Assembly: GCF_005145005.1 (NCBI RefSeq)
Contig: NZ_CP039712.1
Coordinates: forward strand, 465,001 to 529,000
DNA: 64,000 bases
Direction of reading: 5' to 3'
Origin: Vagococcus zengguangii
GTDB lineage: Bacteria; Bacillota; Bacilli; Lactobacillales; Vagococcaceae
Shown: piece after piece, positions 17,767 to 62,655 of the stretch
Position numbering within the stretch: the stretch's first letter is position 1
How the letters are laid out: the number at the start of each line of letters is the position of its first letter
The notes under the pieces: model-generated
Databases searched by the model: none
Seen by the model: the letters and a program-made list of their open reading frames with translations, nothing else
What the model was told of the DNA's origin: nothing
Program-made: the position numbers and the translations under genes

Positions 17767-17799
17767 CATTTTTTTTGAAGATAGGTTAAAATAATATTT

Positions 17800-17875
17800 G
17801 GCAATGGTTAGGCTATGAATTGTGTCAGGTCCGGAAGGAAGCAGCACTAAGTAGTCTGGCCATGTGCCTTTTTTT
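17800..17875 (+). ncRNA. ffs: Signal recognition particle RNA, small bacterial type
   Basis: The universally conserved SRP core GTCAGGTCCGGAAGGAAGCA (17823-17842), containing the GGAAG-type tetraloop and the asymmetric bulge, is flanked by pairing ends GGCAATGG (17800-17807) and CCATGTGCC (17860-17868). A T-run at 17869-17875 can terminate it. It forms the short hairpin (domain IV) RNA that binds Ffh. Its place between tadA and dnaX is usual in this group. Confidence 0.95.
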
Positions 17876-17906
17876 GTATCTTAAAATAAAAGTTATTTAT
17901 ATAGAA

Positions 17907-17957
17907 GAAACAGGCTCCCGTAATGTATCAATTTGTACATTACGGGGGCCTGTTTTA
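17907..17957. terminator. Strong hairpin terminator downstream of ffs
   Basis: ACAGGC-CCCGTAATGTA pairs with TACATTACGGG-GGCCTGT (an extra base in each arm) and is followed by TTTT. It may back up the ffs T-run and separate it from the repeat cluster and the convergent minus-strand operon. Confidence 0.85.
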
Positions 17958-17960
17958 TTT

Positions 17961-18234
17961 GCATGTGAAGAAGCTAATCGTACCTTTCATCACTTTTTTA
18001 TCCGAATTTCGGAAGTAGCTTCTGCGGAAATATAATGAGCTTCTCAAAAGGATTAAAAATTCTTTCGTCATCTCATGCATATTTCTTGAAGCTGAACACT
18101 TCCTCAATCACTTTATATAATCCGGATTTCAAGCGCAACTTCCTCGGTAATATGTCACGACTCTCAAAAATTATTGCATAATTTTCGTCGCCGTGCGCAT
18201 ATTACTCCGAAGTTAATCGCGCTTTCCATCACTT
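17961..18234 (-). repeat. Hairpin repeat cluster A (two full units, one partial)
   Basis: Read on the minus strand, this begins 1-2 bases after the stop of the TPM-domain gene. Unit A1 (18234-18118) and unit A2 (18115-18000) are about 117-bp imperfect hairpins, and A3 (17999-17961) is a truncated left end. Shared parts are the left end GTGATTGAA...TTAGCTTC, the centre GACGAAAAT...TTTTTGAGA, and the right end GAGGAAGTTGCGC...GAAATCCGGATTA. A1 and A2 use different but internally complementary middle blocks. Same family as the clusters at 23.8 and 62.4 kb. No coding potential. Confidence 0.85.
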
Positions 18235-18235
18235 T

Positions 18236-19057
18236 TTAGAACCCTCGGCCACCGCCGCCGTGTGAGCGTCCGCTACTTGAGGTGAAAGAACCGCCACCTT
18301 TTGTAGTTGTACCACGTGTTGTAGTAGGGCGTGGAATGAAACGTCGTGTGACGCGAACGTCGACTAAATCATTTTTTTGTGTAGCTAAATTTAGTTGTCC
18401 TTGGCTAGCATATGGATAAGTATAGGTGCTTTTCTTCAACGCATATTTAGTATTCACACTTGCATAAGCTGCAATGGCTGCAATACTTGCAATCACAAAA
18501 GCGAATAAGAATTCTAGGCCAGTGATTTTTTTCTGCTTAATTAATTGACCAGTTTCTTCATTATATTTGTAACCATTAGGCATACCTTCGGCGTTAAACT
18601 GCGTAATATTATTAATTACAGCCTGACTTGCTTGGGCGTAGTTCCCGTTGCGCATATATGGTTCGGCGTTATCTAAAATCGTATCGATACGTGAATCACT
18701 GAGTAACGCATGGGTTTTCCCAGAGGTTACAACGTAAAATTCACGATTATCCATATCAATGATGAAAATAAAGCCATCATAGTTCTTTCCAATGCCGTAA
18801 CCATTATAGTCATAAAAATCTGCCGCATAGTCACGAGTGGCATAACCTTCTGCATTGTTAATTGTTAGTACCACCGCATCCATGTTGGTGGTTTGGATAA
18901 AATCTTTAACGTCTTGCTCAACCGCCGCTTTCTCTTCAGCTGTAAAGAGCCCCGCATGATCTAATACTTTAACGTCATTAGCTTGGCTAAGTTGTGGAAA
19001 AAGAAATAACAGACAACTCGCAACTAATAGTAGTAAATATTTTAGCGATGTTCTCAT
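18236..19057 (-). CDS. ydjH: TPM-domain membrane protein, YdjH/YgcG-like
   Basis: 273 residues. The N-terminal signal sequence (MRTSLKYLLLLVASCLLFLF) is followed by an extracytoplasmic TPM domain (VKVLDHAGLFTAEEKAAVEQDV... to about residue 165). A membrane segment (LEFLFAFVIASIAAIAAYAS) and a Gly/Ser/Thr-rich C-terminal tail ending SHGGGGRGF complete it. TPM-domain proteins work in membrane stress or photosystem repair in other bacteria. The start at 19057 overlaps the upstream stop (ATGA) and has GGAGG 9 bp before. It is the last gene of a ydjI-ydjG-ydjH-like operon. The stop is followed directly by hairpin repeats. Confidence 0.82.
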   Translation of the reverse strand: MRTSLKYLLLLVASCLLFLFPQLSQANDVKVLDHAGLFTAEEKAAVEQDVKDFIQTTNMDAVVLTINNAEGYATRDYAADFYDYNGYGIGKNYDGFIFIIDMDNREFYVVTSGKTHALLSDSRIDTILDNAEPYMRNGNYAQASQAVINNITQFNAEGMPNGYKYNEETGQLIKQKKITGLEFLFAFVIASIAAIAAYASVNTKYALKKSTYTYPYASQGQLNLATQKNDLVDVRVTRRFIPRPTTTRGTTTKGGGSFTSSSGRSHGGGGRGF

Positions 19058-20139
19058 ATGAACCAGCCTCCAATCAGCAATAGAATGAAGACTAACCCAA
19101 ATATCCAAGCAGAACGCATGAAGAGACGTTTTTTATCAACGGGTAATTTACCACTAATTTTGCCAGTTTCACCATTCATCGCATAGTAGAACGGTTCGTC
19201 AGGTGGGGTGTTTTTCCCGCGATAAGTCAAAATCCAAATAGGTAGTAACACGTATTGTTGTTTGTCACTAAAATTAGGATAACTAATATTCTCTTGATAA
19301 ACTTGTGTGAAGCCTGTTACGGTATTTTTCATCATCGATGTCCCGTAAGATTGTAGTTCAGCTTGAACTTCTCCTTGAATCTCTTCGTAATCAACGTCAC
19401 GTTTATCCGCTAAAAAGCCTGATAAATATTTGCTTGAAAATGGTTTGGCTTTGGTTAAATCAAATGGCTGTACCGAATCAATCATCGCGACTTTCGAATT
19501 TTTCTTCAAAGCGTTTTTGACTAAGTTTTTAAAAGAAATTTGCCCTTCGCGTACAACGTTGAAGTATTTGGTTTCGGTCATTTCCATATCACCAGCAATC
19601 CAAACGCGGATATTTTTAGCGTTCGCACGGTAAGTTCCATTCATATCACCATCAATGACCCAGTAAGGGAAGTAGACACCTGATATTTTTTCAACCTGTT
19701 CATTGTCAAAAAAATCTTTAGGGACAAATTTTTTCGACTTACCCCATTTTAAGAAAGACTCAATCGCTTCTTGGCGCTCAATTGTAAATGGTACAACGGA
19801 TTCTGGCAAGTATTCACCACTAACTCGTCCGGATAATACGACGGGATTGTGACAGTAGTAGCAAAAAGTGGCGGCAGTTGTTGCTTCCGTCACCACTTCA
19901 GCGCCACAAGTTGGACAACTAAACAGTTCTAAGGTACTGAAGGTTGTATCATTTGGATCGTCAGTTGTTTCATCAGGGACTTCAACCTCAACGTGTTCGG
20001 ATTTTGATGTGACAAGAGAAGTAATGTCTTCTTCTGTAAAATCACTCGAACAATACCCACAATGAAACATTTGAGTAGTTGGATTGAATGTTAATGGCCC
20101 ATCACAGTTGGGACATTTGTGTATCATTACTTCACTCAT
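19054..20139 (-). CDS. ydjG: Zinc-ribbon membrane protein, YdjG-like
   Basis: 361 residues. Two N-terminal zinc ribbons, CPNC...CGYC (about residues 9-30) and CPTC...CYYC (about 75-95), are of the TFIIB type. A large cytoplasmic domain carries the segment GVYFPYWVIDGDMNGTY and is followed by a single membrane segment at the C-terminus (FGLVFILLLIGGWFI). Bacillus subtilis YdjG, partner of YdjH, YdjI and PspA in membrane protection, has the same plan. It is translationally coupled to the TPM gene by a 4-bp overlap. The biochemical role is unknown. Confidence 0.8.
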   Translation of the reverse strand: MSEVMIHKCPNCDGPLTFNPTTQMFHCGYCSSDFTEEDITSLVTSKSEHVEVEVPDETTDDPNDTTFSTLELFSCPTCGAEVVTEATTAATFCYYCHNPVVLSGRVSGEYLPESVVPFTIERQEAIESFLKWGKSKKFVPKDFFDNEQVEKISGVYFPYWVIDGDMNGTYRANAKNIRVWIAGDMEMTETKYFNVVREGQISFKNLVKNALKKNSKVAMIDSVQPFDLTKAKPFSSKYLSGFLADKRDVDYEEIQGEVQAELQSYGTSMMKNTVTGFTQVYQENISYPNFSDKQQYVLLPIWILTYRGKNTPPDEPFYYAMNGETGKISGKLPVDKKRLFMRSAWIFGLVFILLLIGGWFI

Positions 20140-21627: not shown

Positions 21628-23364
21628 TTGGCATATCAAGCATTATACCGCGTTTGGCGTTCCCAACGTTTTGATGACATTGTGGGACAAAAAACGGTTA
21701 CTCAAACATTAAAAAATGCACTATCGCAACATAAAACCTCTCATGCGTATCTGTTTACCGGACCACGAGGAACAGGTAAAACGAGTGCGGCAAAAATATT
21801 TGCCAAAGCGATTAACTGTCCGAATCAAGTGGACGGCGAGCCATGTAATGAATGCCATATTTGTAAAGCTATTACAGAAGGTCGTCTTAATGACGTTATT
21901 GAAATAGATGCGGCAAGTAATAACGGAGTGGATGAAATTCGTGAAATCCGTGAGAAAGTTAAATACGCGCCCACTCAAGTTTCTTACAAAGTTTATATTA
22001 TTGATGAGGTCCATATGCTGTCGACAGGCGCATTTAATGCGTTATTAAAAACGTTGGAAGAACCACCTCAAAATGTATTATTTATTTTGGCTACAACCGA
22101 ACCACATAAGATTCCGGCGACGATTATTTCTAGGACACAACGCTTTGATTTCAAACGAATTCAAACGGAAGATATCGTGGAACATTTAGGTTATATTTTA
22201 AATGATATGGACTATGCTTATGATGAGCAAAGTCTGTATATTATTGCACGCGCTGCTGAAGGTGGTATGCGTGATGCTTTGAGTTTGTTAGACCAGGCGT
22301 TATCGTTTAGTGATGAACGTTTAACCGAACAAGATGCCTTGCAAGTAACGGGGAGTTTAACTCATGAGATGATGGATCAATACTTAACTGATTGTGCTAA
22401 TGGTGAAGTTGAAGCAGCGTTAGCAGGTGTACAGAAAATATTATCAGAAGGTAAGGAAGCCAATCGTTTTATTGAAGATGTCTTGTTGTATAGTCGTGAT
22501 TTATTGATTTATAAACAAGCACCAGAATTTTTAAACTTACAACGTGGATATGTTTCGGAAGGATTTAAACAATTAGCGAGCGAGTTAACAAATGATAAAA
22601 TTTACCGCTATATTGATTTGTTGAGCGAAACACAACAACAATTAAAAGTTAGTACCCACGCGACGGTTTATTTAGAAGTCGTAACGGTTAAGTTAGCAAA
22701 ATTAAGAATCAACGTACCAAATGATGTGCCAGTAGCTAGTGGTCAAGTGGCGATTGCACCAGAACAATTGGTTCAGTTACAGCAACAATTGGAAGCATTA
22801 CAACAAGAATTAGCCGAAGTTAAGCAAAATGGTGTGACACTAAGTAGCACAACCCCACAAGTCCAATCAGCTAAAACTAAACCAAGTCAGTTCAAATTAC
22901 CAAAAGGTTTAGTTTATAATGTTTTGAAAGAAGCAACCCGTGAAAGTCTGCGAGAAACGCAAGACGTATGGGGCGATTTATTACAAATGTTGTCGACTCG
23001 TGAAAGAGGGATGATTCGTAATAGTCATCCGGTAGCGGCAAGTAATACTGAAGTGGTCGTAACGTTTGATAGTGATTTTGTTTGTCACATGTTGAACAAT
23101 GATGACTCACTTCAACAAGCGATTCAAATGAACTTACAACGCTTAATTCAAAAGCCATTAAAAGCTGTCTTCATTCCAGAAGTCAGCTGGGCGATGTTAC
23201 GTAATGACTACCTAAAAGAACATCCTTTCGAGAAGAAACAAGAAGCAACGATTAGTCCGGATGTACAAGTAGCAGAAATAGATCAACAGCAAGCGAGTCA
23301 AGAAGTGGTCGAAAAAGCCATTGAATTTTTTGGTGAAGAATTAGTTGAAATATCAGAAGAGTAA
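21628..23364 (+). CDS. dnaX: DNA polymerase III subunits gamma/tau
   Basis: A 578-residue clamp-loader ATPase. Walker A is GPRGTGKTS (about residues 45-53). The zinc module CPNQVDGEPCNECHIC, Walker B IIDEVH and the arginine finger segment SRTQRF follow. Domains I-III end near 370, and the rest is the tau tail for helicase and polymerase contact. The start is TTG at 21628 after AAAGGAGAGAGG; the protein MAYQALYRVWR is the standard N-terminus. No obvious slippery A-tract for a programmed gamma frameshift was seen. First gene of the dnaX-ybaB-recR run. Confidence 0.96.
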   Translation: MAYQALYRVWRSQRFDDIVGQKTVTQTLKNALSQHKTSHAYLFTGPRGTGKTSAAKIFAKAINCPNQVDGEPCNECHICKAITEGRLNDVIEIDAASNNGVDEIREIREKVKYAPTQVSYKVYIIDEVHMLSTGAFNALLKTLEEPPQNVLFILATTEPHKIPATIISRTQRFDFKRIQTEDIVEHLGYILNDMDYAYDEQSLYIIARAAEGGMRDALSLLDQALSFSDERLTEQDALQVTGSLTHEMMDQYLTDCANGEVEAALAGVQKILSEGKEANRFIEDVLLYSRDLLIYKQAPEFLNLQRGYVSEGFKQLASELTNDKIYRYIDLLSETQQQLKVSTHATVYLEVVTVKLAKLRINVPNDVPVASGQVAIAPEQLVQLQQQLEALQQELAEVKQNGVTLSSTTPQVQSAKTKPSQFKLPKGLVYNVLKEATRESLRETQDVWGDLLQMLSTRERGMIRNSHPVAASNTEVVVTFDSDFVCHMLNNDDSLQQAIQMNLQRLIQKPLKAVFIPEVSWAMLRNDYLKEHPFEKKQEATISPDVQVAEIDQQQASQEVVEKAIEFFGEELVEISEE

Positions 23365-23401
23365 AATAATTATTATTATAGAAGAAAGTAGGAATTAAAT
23401 T

Positions 23402-23716
23402 ATGATGCGTGGAATGGGAAATATGCAAGGTATGATGAAACAAATGCAAAAAATGCAAAAAGAAATGGCAACAGCTCAAGAAGCTTTAGAAGCTAAAACA
23501 TATACAGGAACAACAACTGGTGATTTAGTAACTGTGACATTTAACGGTAAAAAAGAAATGTTAAGCTTAGATATTAAACCAGAAGTCATCGATCCAGAAG
23601 ATCCAGAAATGTTACAAGATTTAATCATCACAGCCGTGAATGACGCTATCAAAAAAGTAACAGTCGATTCAGAAGCAACAATGGGCAAATACACAAAAGG
23701 CCTACCAGGGTTCTAA
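23402..23716 (+). CDS. ybaB: YbaB/EbfC family nucleoid-associated protein
   Basis: A 104-residue DNA-binding protein of the YbaB/EbfC family. The Met/Gln-rich N-terminal helix ([18 protein letters not shown]) and the motif [14 protein letters not shown] are typical. It binds DNA as a dimer with a tweezer-like shape. It sits between dnaX and recR as in most bacteria. A hairpin repeat unit starts 7 bp after its stop. Confidence 0.95.
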
Positions 23717-23722
23717 AAAAAA

Positions 23723-23905
23723 GGTGCTTGAAAGAGTGCTTAGCTCTGAAAAATAAGATGAATTACGCAAAAAATTTGTTTTTTAATTTTTGGAGTAAGG
23801 GAACTTATTTTGGCAAGAGCTACTCTTGAAAGCCCGTATATAAATTGATTGAAGGCGCGTTTAGCTTCAAGTATATGCGCACGCTGACAGAAGTATTCAA
23901 ATACT
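23723..23905 (+). repeat. Hairpin repeat cluster B (one full unit, one partial)
   Basis: Unit B1 (23723-23839) starts GGTGCTTGAAAGAG and ends CTACTCTTGAAAGCCCG. Its arms pair along their length: AAGAGTGCTTAGCTC with GAGCTACTCTT, AAATAAG with CTTATTT, and ATTACGCAAAAAATT with AATTTTTGGAGTAA. B2 (23845-23905) is a left half related to the GATTGAAGGCGCG...TTAGCTTC subtype and lacks its right arm. The cluster follows ybaB in the sense orientation. Confidence 0.8.
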
Positions 23906-23937
23906 TTAATAATCTTTACCTAAAATTATACAAGGAA

Positions 23938-23970
23938 AGCGGCTGTGATAATTTGTCACAGCTCTTTTTA
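23938..23970 (+). terminator. Terminator between the repeat cluster and recR
   Basis: GCTGTGA (23942-23948) pairs with TCACAGC (23956-23962), followed by TCTTTTT. Together with cluster B it separates ybaB from recR. Confidence 0.75.
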
Positions 23971-24000
23971 AAAGTTCAACAGATAGAAATGAGGAAGAAC

Positions 24001-24597
24001 ATGCATTATCCAACACCGATAGCTAAGTTGATTGAAAGCTATATGAAATTACCGGGCATTGGGGCAAAAACAGCGGCTCGTTTAGCCTTTTATACGATTG
24101 ATATGAAAGAAGATGATGTAACAGAATTTGCGAAAGCGTTAATTAGTGTTAAACGCGATTTACACTATTGCGATGTTTGCGGCAATATTACCGAAAGTGC
24201 TGTTTGTTCAATTTGTCAGGATACATCTCGTGATAAGTCAGTTGTGTTAGTTGTTGAAGAGTCTAAAGATGTCATGTCGATGGAAAAAATGCGTGAATAT
24301 CGTGGTCAATATCATGTTTTACATGGGGTATTATCACCGATGGATGGCACAGGTCCTGATGATATTAATATTACGAGTCTTATCCAACGTTTGCATAATG
24401 ATGAAATAAATGAAGTCATTATTGCTACTAACGCAACAACTGAGGGTGAAGCGACTGCTATGTATTTATCACGCTTAATTAAGCCTGCCGGTATTAAAGT
24501 GACACGTTTAGCTCATGGTTTATCAGTCGGAAGCGACATTGAGTATGCCGATGAAGTGACCTTGCTTAAAGCCGTTGAAGGTCGTCGTGAAATGTAG
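24001..24597 (+). CDS. recR: Recombination protein RecR
   Basis: 198 residues, the usual length, starting [21 protein letters not shown]. The order is helix-hairpin-helix ([14 protein letters not shown]), Cys4 zinc finger ([16 protein letters not shown]) and Toprim domain ([17 protein letters not shown]...). It loads RecA with RecFO in recombinational repair. The ATG at 24001 follows GAGGAAG. The frame stays open 156 bp upstream, but that part is hairpin-repeat DNA, so an upstream start would be an artefact. A terminator lies just before it, implying a promoter of its own that was not located. Confidence 0.95.
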
Positions 24598-60308: not shown

Positions 60309-62252
60309 ATGTCAGAAATTAAAATTACTTTCCCAGATGGCGCAGTCAAAGAGTTCGCAGCAGGCGTTTCAACTTTCGACATCGCTGAAAGTATCAGCAA
60401 AAGTTTAGCAAAAAAAGCCTTAGCAGGTAAATTTAATGGTGAGCTAGTTGATTTAGTTCGTCCATTAGAAGTTGATGGCTCAATTGAAATCATCACACCA
60501 GACCATGAAGATGCACTAGGTATCTTACGTCACTCAACCGCTCATTTAATGGCCAATGCGATTCGTCGTATTTATCCAAACGTTCACTTTGGGGTTGGTC
60601 CAGCGATTGAAAATGGTTTTTACTATGATACAGATAATGGTGAATCACCTATTTCAGAAGAAGATTTACCATTAATCGAAGCCAAAATGATGGAAATTGT
60701 GAAAGAAAACAATCCAATCGTCCGTAAAGAAGTGTCACGTGCTGAAGCGTTAGAATTATTTAAAGAAGATCCATACAAAGTCGAATTAATTACCGACTTA
60801 CCAGAAGATGAAATTATCACAGTTTACGACCAAGGGGATTTCGTTGATTTATGTCGTGGGGTTCACGTGCCAAGTACTGGTCGCATTCAAGTCTTCAAAC
60901 TATTATCAGTAGCAGGTGCTTACTGGAGAGGTAACTCAGACAATAAGATGATGCAACGTGTTTACGGAACTGCTTTCTTCGATAAAAAAGCCTTAAAAGA
61001 AGATATGCAACGCCGTGAAGAAGCCAAAGAACGTGACCACCGTAAATTAGGGAAAGAACTAGATTTATTCATGGTAAACCCTGAAGTTGGTTCTGGTTTA
61101 CCATTCTGGTTACCAAAAGGTGCGACAATCCGTCGTACTATCGAACGTTACATTACGGATAAAGAAATCAGCTTAGGTTACCAACACGTTTACACACCCA
61201 TTATGGCAAATGTGGAATTATACAAAACATCTGGTCACTGGGATCACTATCATGAAGACATGTTCCCACCAATGGATATGGGTGACGGTGAAATGTTAGT
61301 TTTACGTCCGATGAACTGCCCTCACCACATGATGGTTTACAAAAACGATATCCACAGCTACCGCGAATTACCAATTCGTATCGCTGAATTAGGCATGATG
61401 CACCGTTATGAAAAATCAGGTGCATTATCAGGATTACAACGTGTACGTGAAATGACATTAAATGATGGTCATACATTTGTTCGTCCAGACCAAATTAAAG
61501 ACGAATTCAAACGTACATTACATTTAATGACAGAAGTTTATGCTGACTTTAATATTACTGATTACCGTTTCCGTTTAAGCTACCGTGATCCAGAAAATAC
61601 TGAAAAATACTTTGATGATGATGAGATGTGGATTAAAGCAGAAGCGATGCTGAAAGAAGCAATGGATGACTTAGGTTTAGAGTACTTCGAAGCAACTGGT
61701 GAAGCAGCCTTTTACGGTCCTAAATTAGACGTTCAAGTTAAGACAGCTTTAGGAATTGAAGAAACACTATCAACTATCCAATTGGACTTCTTATTACCTG
61801 AACGTTTTGACTTAACTTACGTAGGTGAAGATGGTGAAAATAATCACCGTCCAGTCGTTATCCACCGTGGAATTGTTTCTACTATGGAACGTTTCGTGGC
61901 GCATTTGACTGAAGTTCACAAAGGGGCATTCCCAACTTGGTTATCACCAGTTCAAGGAACAATCATCCCAGTTAACTTAGACTTACATAGTGATTTTGCT
62001 TACCAAGTCAAAGAAAAATTAGTGGCTCACGGCTTACGTTTTGACGTGGATGCTCGTAACGAAAAAATGGGTTACAAGATTCGTGAATCACAAACACAAA
62101 AAATCCCTTATCAAGTTGTTGTAGGGGACAAAGAATTAGAAGAAGGCACTGTTAACGTTCGCCGCTATGGTAGCAAAGAAACAGCAACTGTAGCCGTTGA
62201 CGAATTCGTAGCCAACGTAGTAGCCGAAGTGAAGAATTTTAGTAGAAATTAG
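60309..62252 (+). CDS. thrS: Threonine--tRNA ligase
   Basis: A 647-residue class II synthetase. TGS domain (1-62), editing domain with [11 protein letters not shown] (zinc-like His pair) and CRGVHVPS, catalytic core with [13 protein letters not shown] (zinc Cys and His), motif 2 [18 protein letters not shown] and motif 3 [11 protein letters not shown]. Anticodon domain at about 545-647. GGGG precedes the ATG. Regulated by the T-box. Hairpin repeats begin directly after its stop. Confidence 0.97.
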
Positions 62253-62580
62253 AGTGATTGAATGAGCGCTTAGCTTTCGAGTAATATGCGCACGATGACG
62301 AAAATTGTGTAACAATTTTTGAGAGTCGTGCCATATTACCGAGGAAGTTGCTCATGAAATCCGGATTAAGTTAGAGTGATTGAAAGCGCGCTTAGCTCCG
62401 ATAAAAATCTCAAATACGACGAAAATATTGTAAATGTTTTTGAGAGTATTTAGATTTTTATGAGGAGTTGCGCTTGAAATCCGGATTACATAAGGTACTT
62501 GAAAGAGCTACTCTTGAAAGCTCGTCAATTAGAGTGATTGAATGAGCGTTTAGCTTCCGAGTAATAAGCGCACGTTGCTT
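62253..62580 (+). repeat. Hairpin repeat cluster C (two full units, one deletion derivative, one half unit)
   Basis: C1 (62253-62368) and C2 (62373-62488) are complete hairpins ending GAAATCCGGATTA. C1 has the arm block TAATATG...GCACGA with mate TCGTG...CATATTA. C2 has TAAAAATCT...AAATAC with GTATTT...AGATTTTTA. C3 (62494-62527) joins the left end GGTACTTGAAAGAG directly to the right end CTACTCTTGAAAGCTCG, as if the inner hairpin were deleted. C4 (62531-62580) is a left half. The cluster follows thrS in its sense orientation. Confidence 0.85.
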
Positions 62581-62613
62581 ATTAAACTCTCTCTTAACAC
62601 GCTAAATATTATC

Positions 62614-62655
62614 CAAAAGTGAGTGGGTATTGTTGCCTGCTCACTTTTGCTTTTA
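62614..62655 (+). terminator. Probable thrS terminator beyond the repeats
   Basis: AAAAGTGAG pairs with CTCACTTTT with inner GGG/CCT pairing, followed by GCTTTT. It lies 360 bp after the thrS stop, so the repeats would be in the thrS 3' untranslated region. Confidence 0.7.

Follow-up and report, generated by a model that had tools for sequence, protein, structure and literature searches.

The EFAR repeat of Enterococcus faecalis has hitherto been regarded as a species-level curiosity. EFAR, reported by Venditti and colleagues in 2007, is 170 bp long with two stem-loops, and reportedly integrates into stem-loop targets, which it replaces, with stems remaining at its ends. Efa-1 of the same species is 163 bp long, folds into two neighbouring stem-loops and occurs in 65 copies, 18 of them complete (Cozzuto et al. 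2008, PMC2267715), and EFAR has been cited as a MITE of enterococci (PMC3733652). BOX, RUP and SPRITE of Streptococcus pneumoniae are likewise small, structured intergenic repeats, clustered and probably parasitic, with BOX being modular (PMC3049150). REP and REPIN sequences are hairpins near stop codons for which an effect on translation has been suggested (PMC12306157, PMC3733652); in E. coli, REPs less than 16 nt from the stop codon reduce translation (PMC12306157).

The hairpin family described here resembles BOX, RUP and SPRITE in being small, structured, intergenic, clustered and probably parasitic, with modularity shared by BOX, and resembles REP and REPIN in lying close to stop codons and in a suggested effect on translation. 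With EFAR/Efa-1 it shares a homologous first hairpin, an intergenic, dispersed, high-copy distribution, modular arms and a MITE-like character. Unlike EFAR/Efa-1, the units in the window have no second (terminator) hairpin; they are 108-112 bp long with one hairpin each, and stand in tandem arrays that abut a stop codon and finish in a truncated last unit. Compared by description, BOX and RUP differ in having terminal inverted repeats and target duplications and in not being tied to stop codons, whereas REPs are only 20-40 bp long, and the Y1 (RAYT-type) transposase is absent from the copy-rich genomes considered here.

The window, the whole stretch of 64,000 bp that was analysed, corresponds to bases 465001-529000 of the 2,190,262-bp genome of Vagococcus zengguangii, which lies in one contig. 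A first-pass annotation had reported nine copies (five full and four partial) and four types of arm block; all nine are present at the positions it gave, and each full unit carries a matching block in both arms (Table 1). Its unit length of 117 bp has to be replaced by a measured paired unit of 108-112 bp and a tandem period of 120-122 bp, and the GACGAAAAT...TTTTTGAGA centre that it assigned to the full units is found in three of the five (18123, 62254 and 62376), the units at 18003 and 23724 being the exceptions. The description was also incomplete, missing the stop-codon placement, the sense orientation, the tandem register and the mobility proposed below.

Table 1. Repeat units and neighbouring hairpins in the window (window coordinates).
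Feature	Position	Strand	Basis
Full unit, TAATATG/CATATTA type	62254..62363	+	R1 131.2 bits
Full unit, TAAAAATCT/AGATTTTTA type	62376..62483	+	R1 120 bits
Remnant: outer stem (GGTACTTGAAAGAGC/TACTCTTGAAAGC) kept, inner hairpin lost	62493..62523	+	Sequence
3'-truncated partial unit closing the array at 62 kb	62531..62585	+	Genome 527528-527599, 26 bits
Terminator-like hairpin and T-run 3' of the array at 62 kb	62616..62654	+	Sequence; predicted
Full unit, TAATATG type	18123..18232	-	R1 125.8 bits
Full unit, GAAATAT/ATATTTC type	18003..18111	-	R1 116.2 bits
3'-truncated partial unit, last in the array at 18 kb	17966..17998	-	Sequence
GC-rich hairpin with A and T runs on its flanks, putative bidirectional terminator of convergent genes	17910..17955	.	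Predicted
Full unit, AAATAAG/CTTATTT type, between ybaB and recR	23724..23835	+	R1 92.7 bits
3'-truncated partial unit after the 23724 unit	23841..23890	+	
Terminator-like hairpin GCTGTGATAATTTGTCACAGC and TCTTTTT, between array and recR	23939..23969	+	Predicted

The stop codons of thrS (ThrRS; 62250-62252) and ybaB immediately precede the units at 62254 and 23724(+), respectively, and the stop codon of a minus-strand TPM-domain gene (18236-19108) marks the start of the unit at 18123-18232(-). RNA folding of the five full window units gave z-scores between -2.7 and -6.3 relative to shuffled sequences. The 3' ends of units are often a perfect palindrome, AATCCGGATT (for example at 62357-62366 and 62477-62486), and the palindromes of adjacent units could pair with one another as an alternative array fold. 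A bacterial small SRP RNA (RF00169) lies at 17791-17885(+), immediately upstream of the terminator of the array at 18 kb. At 21628-24597 the gene order is dnaX-ybaB-recR, with array and terminator-like hairpin inserted between ybaB and recR; the recR start is probably the ATG at 24001.

An alignment (A1) and a covariance model (R1) were built from 33 full units of this genome alone. The search for further copies, which the first-pass annotation had set as a test of the family, returned 46 R1 matches in the 2.19-Mb genome, a count that omits two weak matches opposite in strand to known units. They fall into 26 intergenic clusters of one to three modelled units, invariably head to tail. The fold is one long, interrupted and polar hairpin of ~110 nt; its 5' arm keeps a 4-nt bulge, its internal loop stays unequal, and the two sides of the paired blocks diverge together. 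Both sides have changed in 29 of the 41 base pairs of A1. Shuffling lowers the share of paired cells from 89.2% to 71.1% and the covariation score from 0.511 to 0.186, and when the arms are slid by 1-3 bases pairing falls to 36-47%. Given 46 model matches and covariation far above the shuffled and slid controls, this copy family is not a product of chance. A described ncRNA family, named beforehand as the match that would count against novelty, was not found in Rfam 15, which gave zero matches at the gathering score and sub-threshold matches alone at a permissive one. A kink-turn reading of the GA/AGA loop was dropped, as this loop is limited to one own-genome unit type. One locus (L298, G000:C1:61416-61540, where G000 denotes this genome) holds the sole Enterococcus-like unit (GAGGTTGTG...CACCGTTTA) of the genome; a direct repeat of the unit's 5' end, 15-17 nt long, lies immediately behind it.

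Fifty-two units of other genomes, aligned independently (A3), have a fold identical to that of A1, and 25 of the 37 pairs in A3 have changed on both sides. The suggestion that paired arm changes preserve the fold is thus borne out by strong covariation in two separate sets of units. In the paired columns of A3, read on the sense strand, G-U was observed 92 times against 149 expected and A-C 19 times against 81; for A1 the corresponding figures were 112 against 182 and 35 against 103. Because G-U is depleted far less than A-C on the sense strand, this pattern favours a sense-strand fold over a double-stranded cruciform, the fold being that of RNA or of single-stranded DNA, which the comparison does not separate.

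Placement is equally constrained. The first unit of 23 of the 26 arrays starts, in sense, between -13 and +2 nt from the end of a same-strand stop codon, a position for which ~6% of the intergenic strand-positions in the window would qualify by chance (P ~1e-24). In most arrays the last full unit gives way to a 3'-truncated unit, with a terminator-like hairpin after it; the 3' boundaries of arrays vary, the terminators behind them in this genome are diverse, and many arrays face convergent genes. The idea that the first unit is the youngest of its array was abandoned, since R1 scores follow no consistent order and unit type confounds them. Elsewhere, 82 units of other genomes comprise 67 with a gene upstream on the same strand and 15 that do not lie in sense behind a gene; 41 of the 67 sense copies are within 15 nt of the upstream stop and 26 are farther away. 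The stop-codon rule is therefore general, and looser outside the genus Vagococcus.

A second model (R2), built from A3, matched 97 of the 398 Lactobacillales genomes sampled, in 35 of 80 genera, both being lower bounds under strict search filters. It also matched a second family of the class, presumed to be Staphylococcaceae, and the 4-nt bulge and unequal internal loop persist across genera, that family included. Named matches are Enterococcus crotali, Staphylococcus pragensis (5) and S. caledonicus (9); those in Levilactobacillus tujiorum and Sutcliffiella halmapala are weak, and the Listeria marthii and S. pettenkoferi genomes searched gave zero. Copy number ranges from 0 to 83 within one family, and some copies are plasmid-borne. 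This Firmicute hairpin is also carried by a Pseudomonas aeruginosa plasmid record (NZ_CP151545.1) and by many Listeria and Enterococcus 'phage' records, all probably mislabelled or contaminating host sequence; matches in phage collections, which look like bacterial contigs deposited as phages, were left out.

The relationship to EFAR/Efa-1 can be drawn more closely through R1. Of 101 related genomes, 24 contain full-length matches to this model, as do 75 of the 106 in the family to which E. faecalis belongs. One genome (G101) was assigned to E. faecalis by an exact 941-bp ddl amplicon and contains 18 full-length R1 matches at E <= 4e-11. Nine of the ten copies inspected there end in a second, terminator-type hairpin, for a total of 168-171 bp; in the tenth this hairpin is visible as well. 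On size, copy number, fold and species, these copies match Efa-1, and Efa-1 is almost certainly EFAR. The first-pass annotation was right to place EFAR nearest and wrong to treat the family as unnamed, since a model made from this genome alone recovers the E. faecalis copies. Fragments of the unit sequence were not found in a relevant context in the papers searched. What appears to be new, in that we have not found it described, is the range through Lactobacillales into Staphylococcus together with the stop-codon rule.

The genome was compared with a congener (G003) that is ~80-90% identical around the array loci and largely syntenic. Seven arrays are missing in the congener (61416, 199441, 1749399, 1873968, 1882774, 1916980 and 1983042), and its empty sites consist of a stop codon, a short spacer and usually the terminator also found in G000. 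At 1882774 the congener genes are only ~20 nt apart and are separated in G000 by array and hairpin, which indicates that the array inserted into an operon. The element itself supplies the stop codon at 1749399. In four slots (2177132, 1878469, 2098022 and 1776747) the two species carry units of different type after gene ends that are nearly identical. The unit at 2183882, by contrast, is identical in the two genomes, and unit and upstream gene end are almost identical (G000:C1:2183882-2184007 and G003:C1:28475-28600) between species that otherwise differ by 10-18%, which we read as probable recent transfer or conversion. Such turnover at fixed slots would be hard to explain without mobility or exchange among copies. 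Where a local terminator is present it is kept at the empty sites examined, in contrast to the replacement of target stem-loops that EFAR reportedly carries out; no replaced stem-loop was seen at the sites of these genomes, which are 15-18% diverged. The sites compared gave no clear case of a target-site duplication or a precise single-unit insertion, and the plasmid pairs compared for clean empty sites gave no clean pair among the matches listed.

Could the paired changes have arisen with no fold being selected? Template switching (quasipalindrome correction in replication) would produce them from DNA hairpins; long imperfect inverted repeats are generally known substrates for arm correction, and whole blocks do change together in both arms here. 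The same process should erase mismatches too, yet the bulge and the unequal loop persist across genera, and the tolerance of G-U over A-C on the sense strand also speaks against it, making this origin distinctly improbable. A non-mobile cis-regulatory element, passed down by vertical descent in the 3' UTRs of certain genes, would suit the strict position and orientation and the several orthologous slots filled in both congeners; we consider it very unlikely, given the seven sites empty in G003, the differing unit types in shared slots, the swing in copy number within one family and the plasmid-borne units.

Another reading is that the units form part of a terminator/anti-terminator, the 5' end of a unit pairing with its own 3' arm or, in other genera, with that of the following terminator, so that the array tunes read-through. 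In Enterococcaceae and Lactobacillaceae the GAGGYTGNGACA start of the unit recurs in the terminator stem, the 170-bp element of E. faecalis always includes the terminator, and arrays with their hairpins part both the genes at 1882774 and ybaB from recR. Even so, the diversity of the terminators behind arrays, their presence at most empty sites where comparison is possible, and the convergent genes opposite many arrays, which leave read-through control with no obvious target, make this role unlikely. A strand-polar hairpin with a fixed left end beside a short motif (TAA or TAG) and no obvious target duplication could also be a derivative moved by IS200/IS605-type single-strand transposases, PATE or REP/RAYT-like. 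We give this almost no credence: the Y1 transposase (PF01797) was found neither in this genome nor in G022, G024, G025 and G027, which hold 18-83 copies, so that mobilisation in cis is largely refuted, with supply in trans or in the past being possible. A requirement for reverse transcriptase was also rejected, as this genome has none; like the Y1 transposases, these enzymes are absent from copy-rich genomes and do not track copy number. The analogy with integron attC sites, also polar folded hairpins in arrays, failed for want of GTTRRRY/RYYYAAC boxes and cassettes.

With homology, fold, covariation, placement, tandem register, presence and absence in the congener and type swapping all observed, we judge this to be a real and well-supported family whose base-pair-compensated fold is common to many Bacilli. 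It seems likely that its members are non-coding hairpins of the EFAR/Efa-1 type, mobile but non-autonomous, that are transcribed as 3'-UTR RNA, and that the family is mobile we regard as highly probable. On this model, a unit would enter in sense immediately behind a stop codon and, if the gene has a native terminator, upstream of it; additional units would join head to tail at 120-122 bp, and the array would close with a 3'-truncated unit. Transcription would then make the units the opening segment of the mRNA's 3' UTR, the sense strand presumably acting as RNA, and a dedicated mobilising enzyme would be expected to exist. As the stem starts a few nt from the stop codon, and E. coli REPs at such distances affect translation, it may slow the terminating ribosome or fix the mRNA 3' end; such a REP-like effect on the host gene is quite possible, if short of probable. 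More tentatively still, and with some doubt, we suggest a Bacilli-wide mobile element, EFAR being the form it takes in a single species, site-specific at stop codons, building polar arrays and served by undescribed machinery that is neither Y1 nor reverse-transcriptase based.

If one fold does span Lactobacillales and Staphylococcus, it would rank among the broader small mobile hairpins of Firmicutes and, being absent from Rfam, would be unannotated in many genomes. It raises the questions, testable in ordinary strains, of what targets stop codons and what a strong stem there does to termination and to mRNA ends, for which the empty and swapped slots offer natural pairs for comparison. Should an undescribed stop-codon machinery indeed be at work, every invaded mRNA would have a stable hairpin at its site of translation termination.
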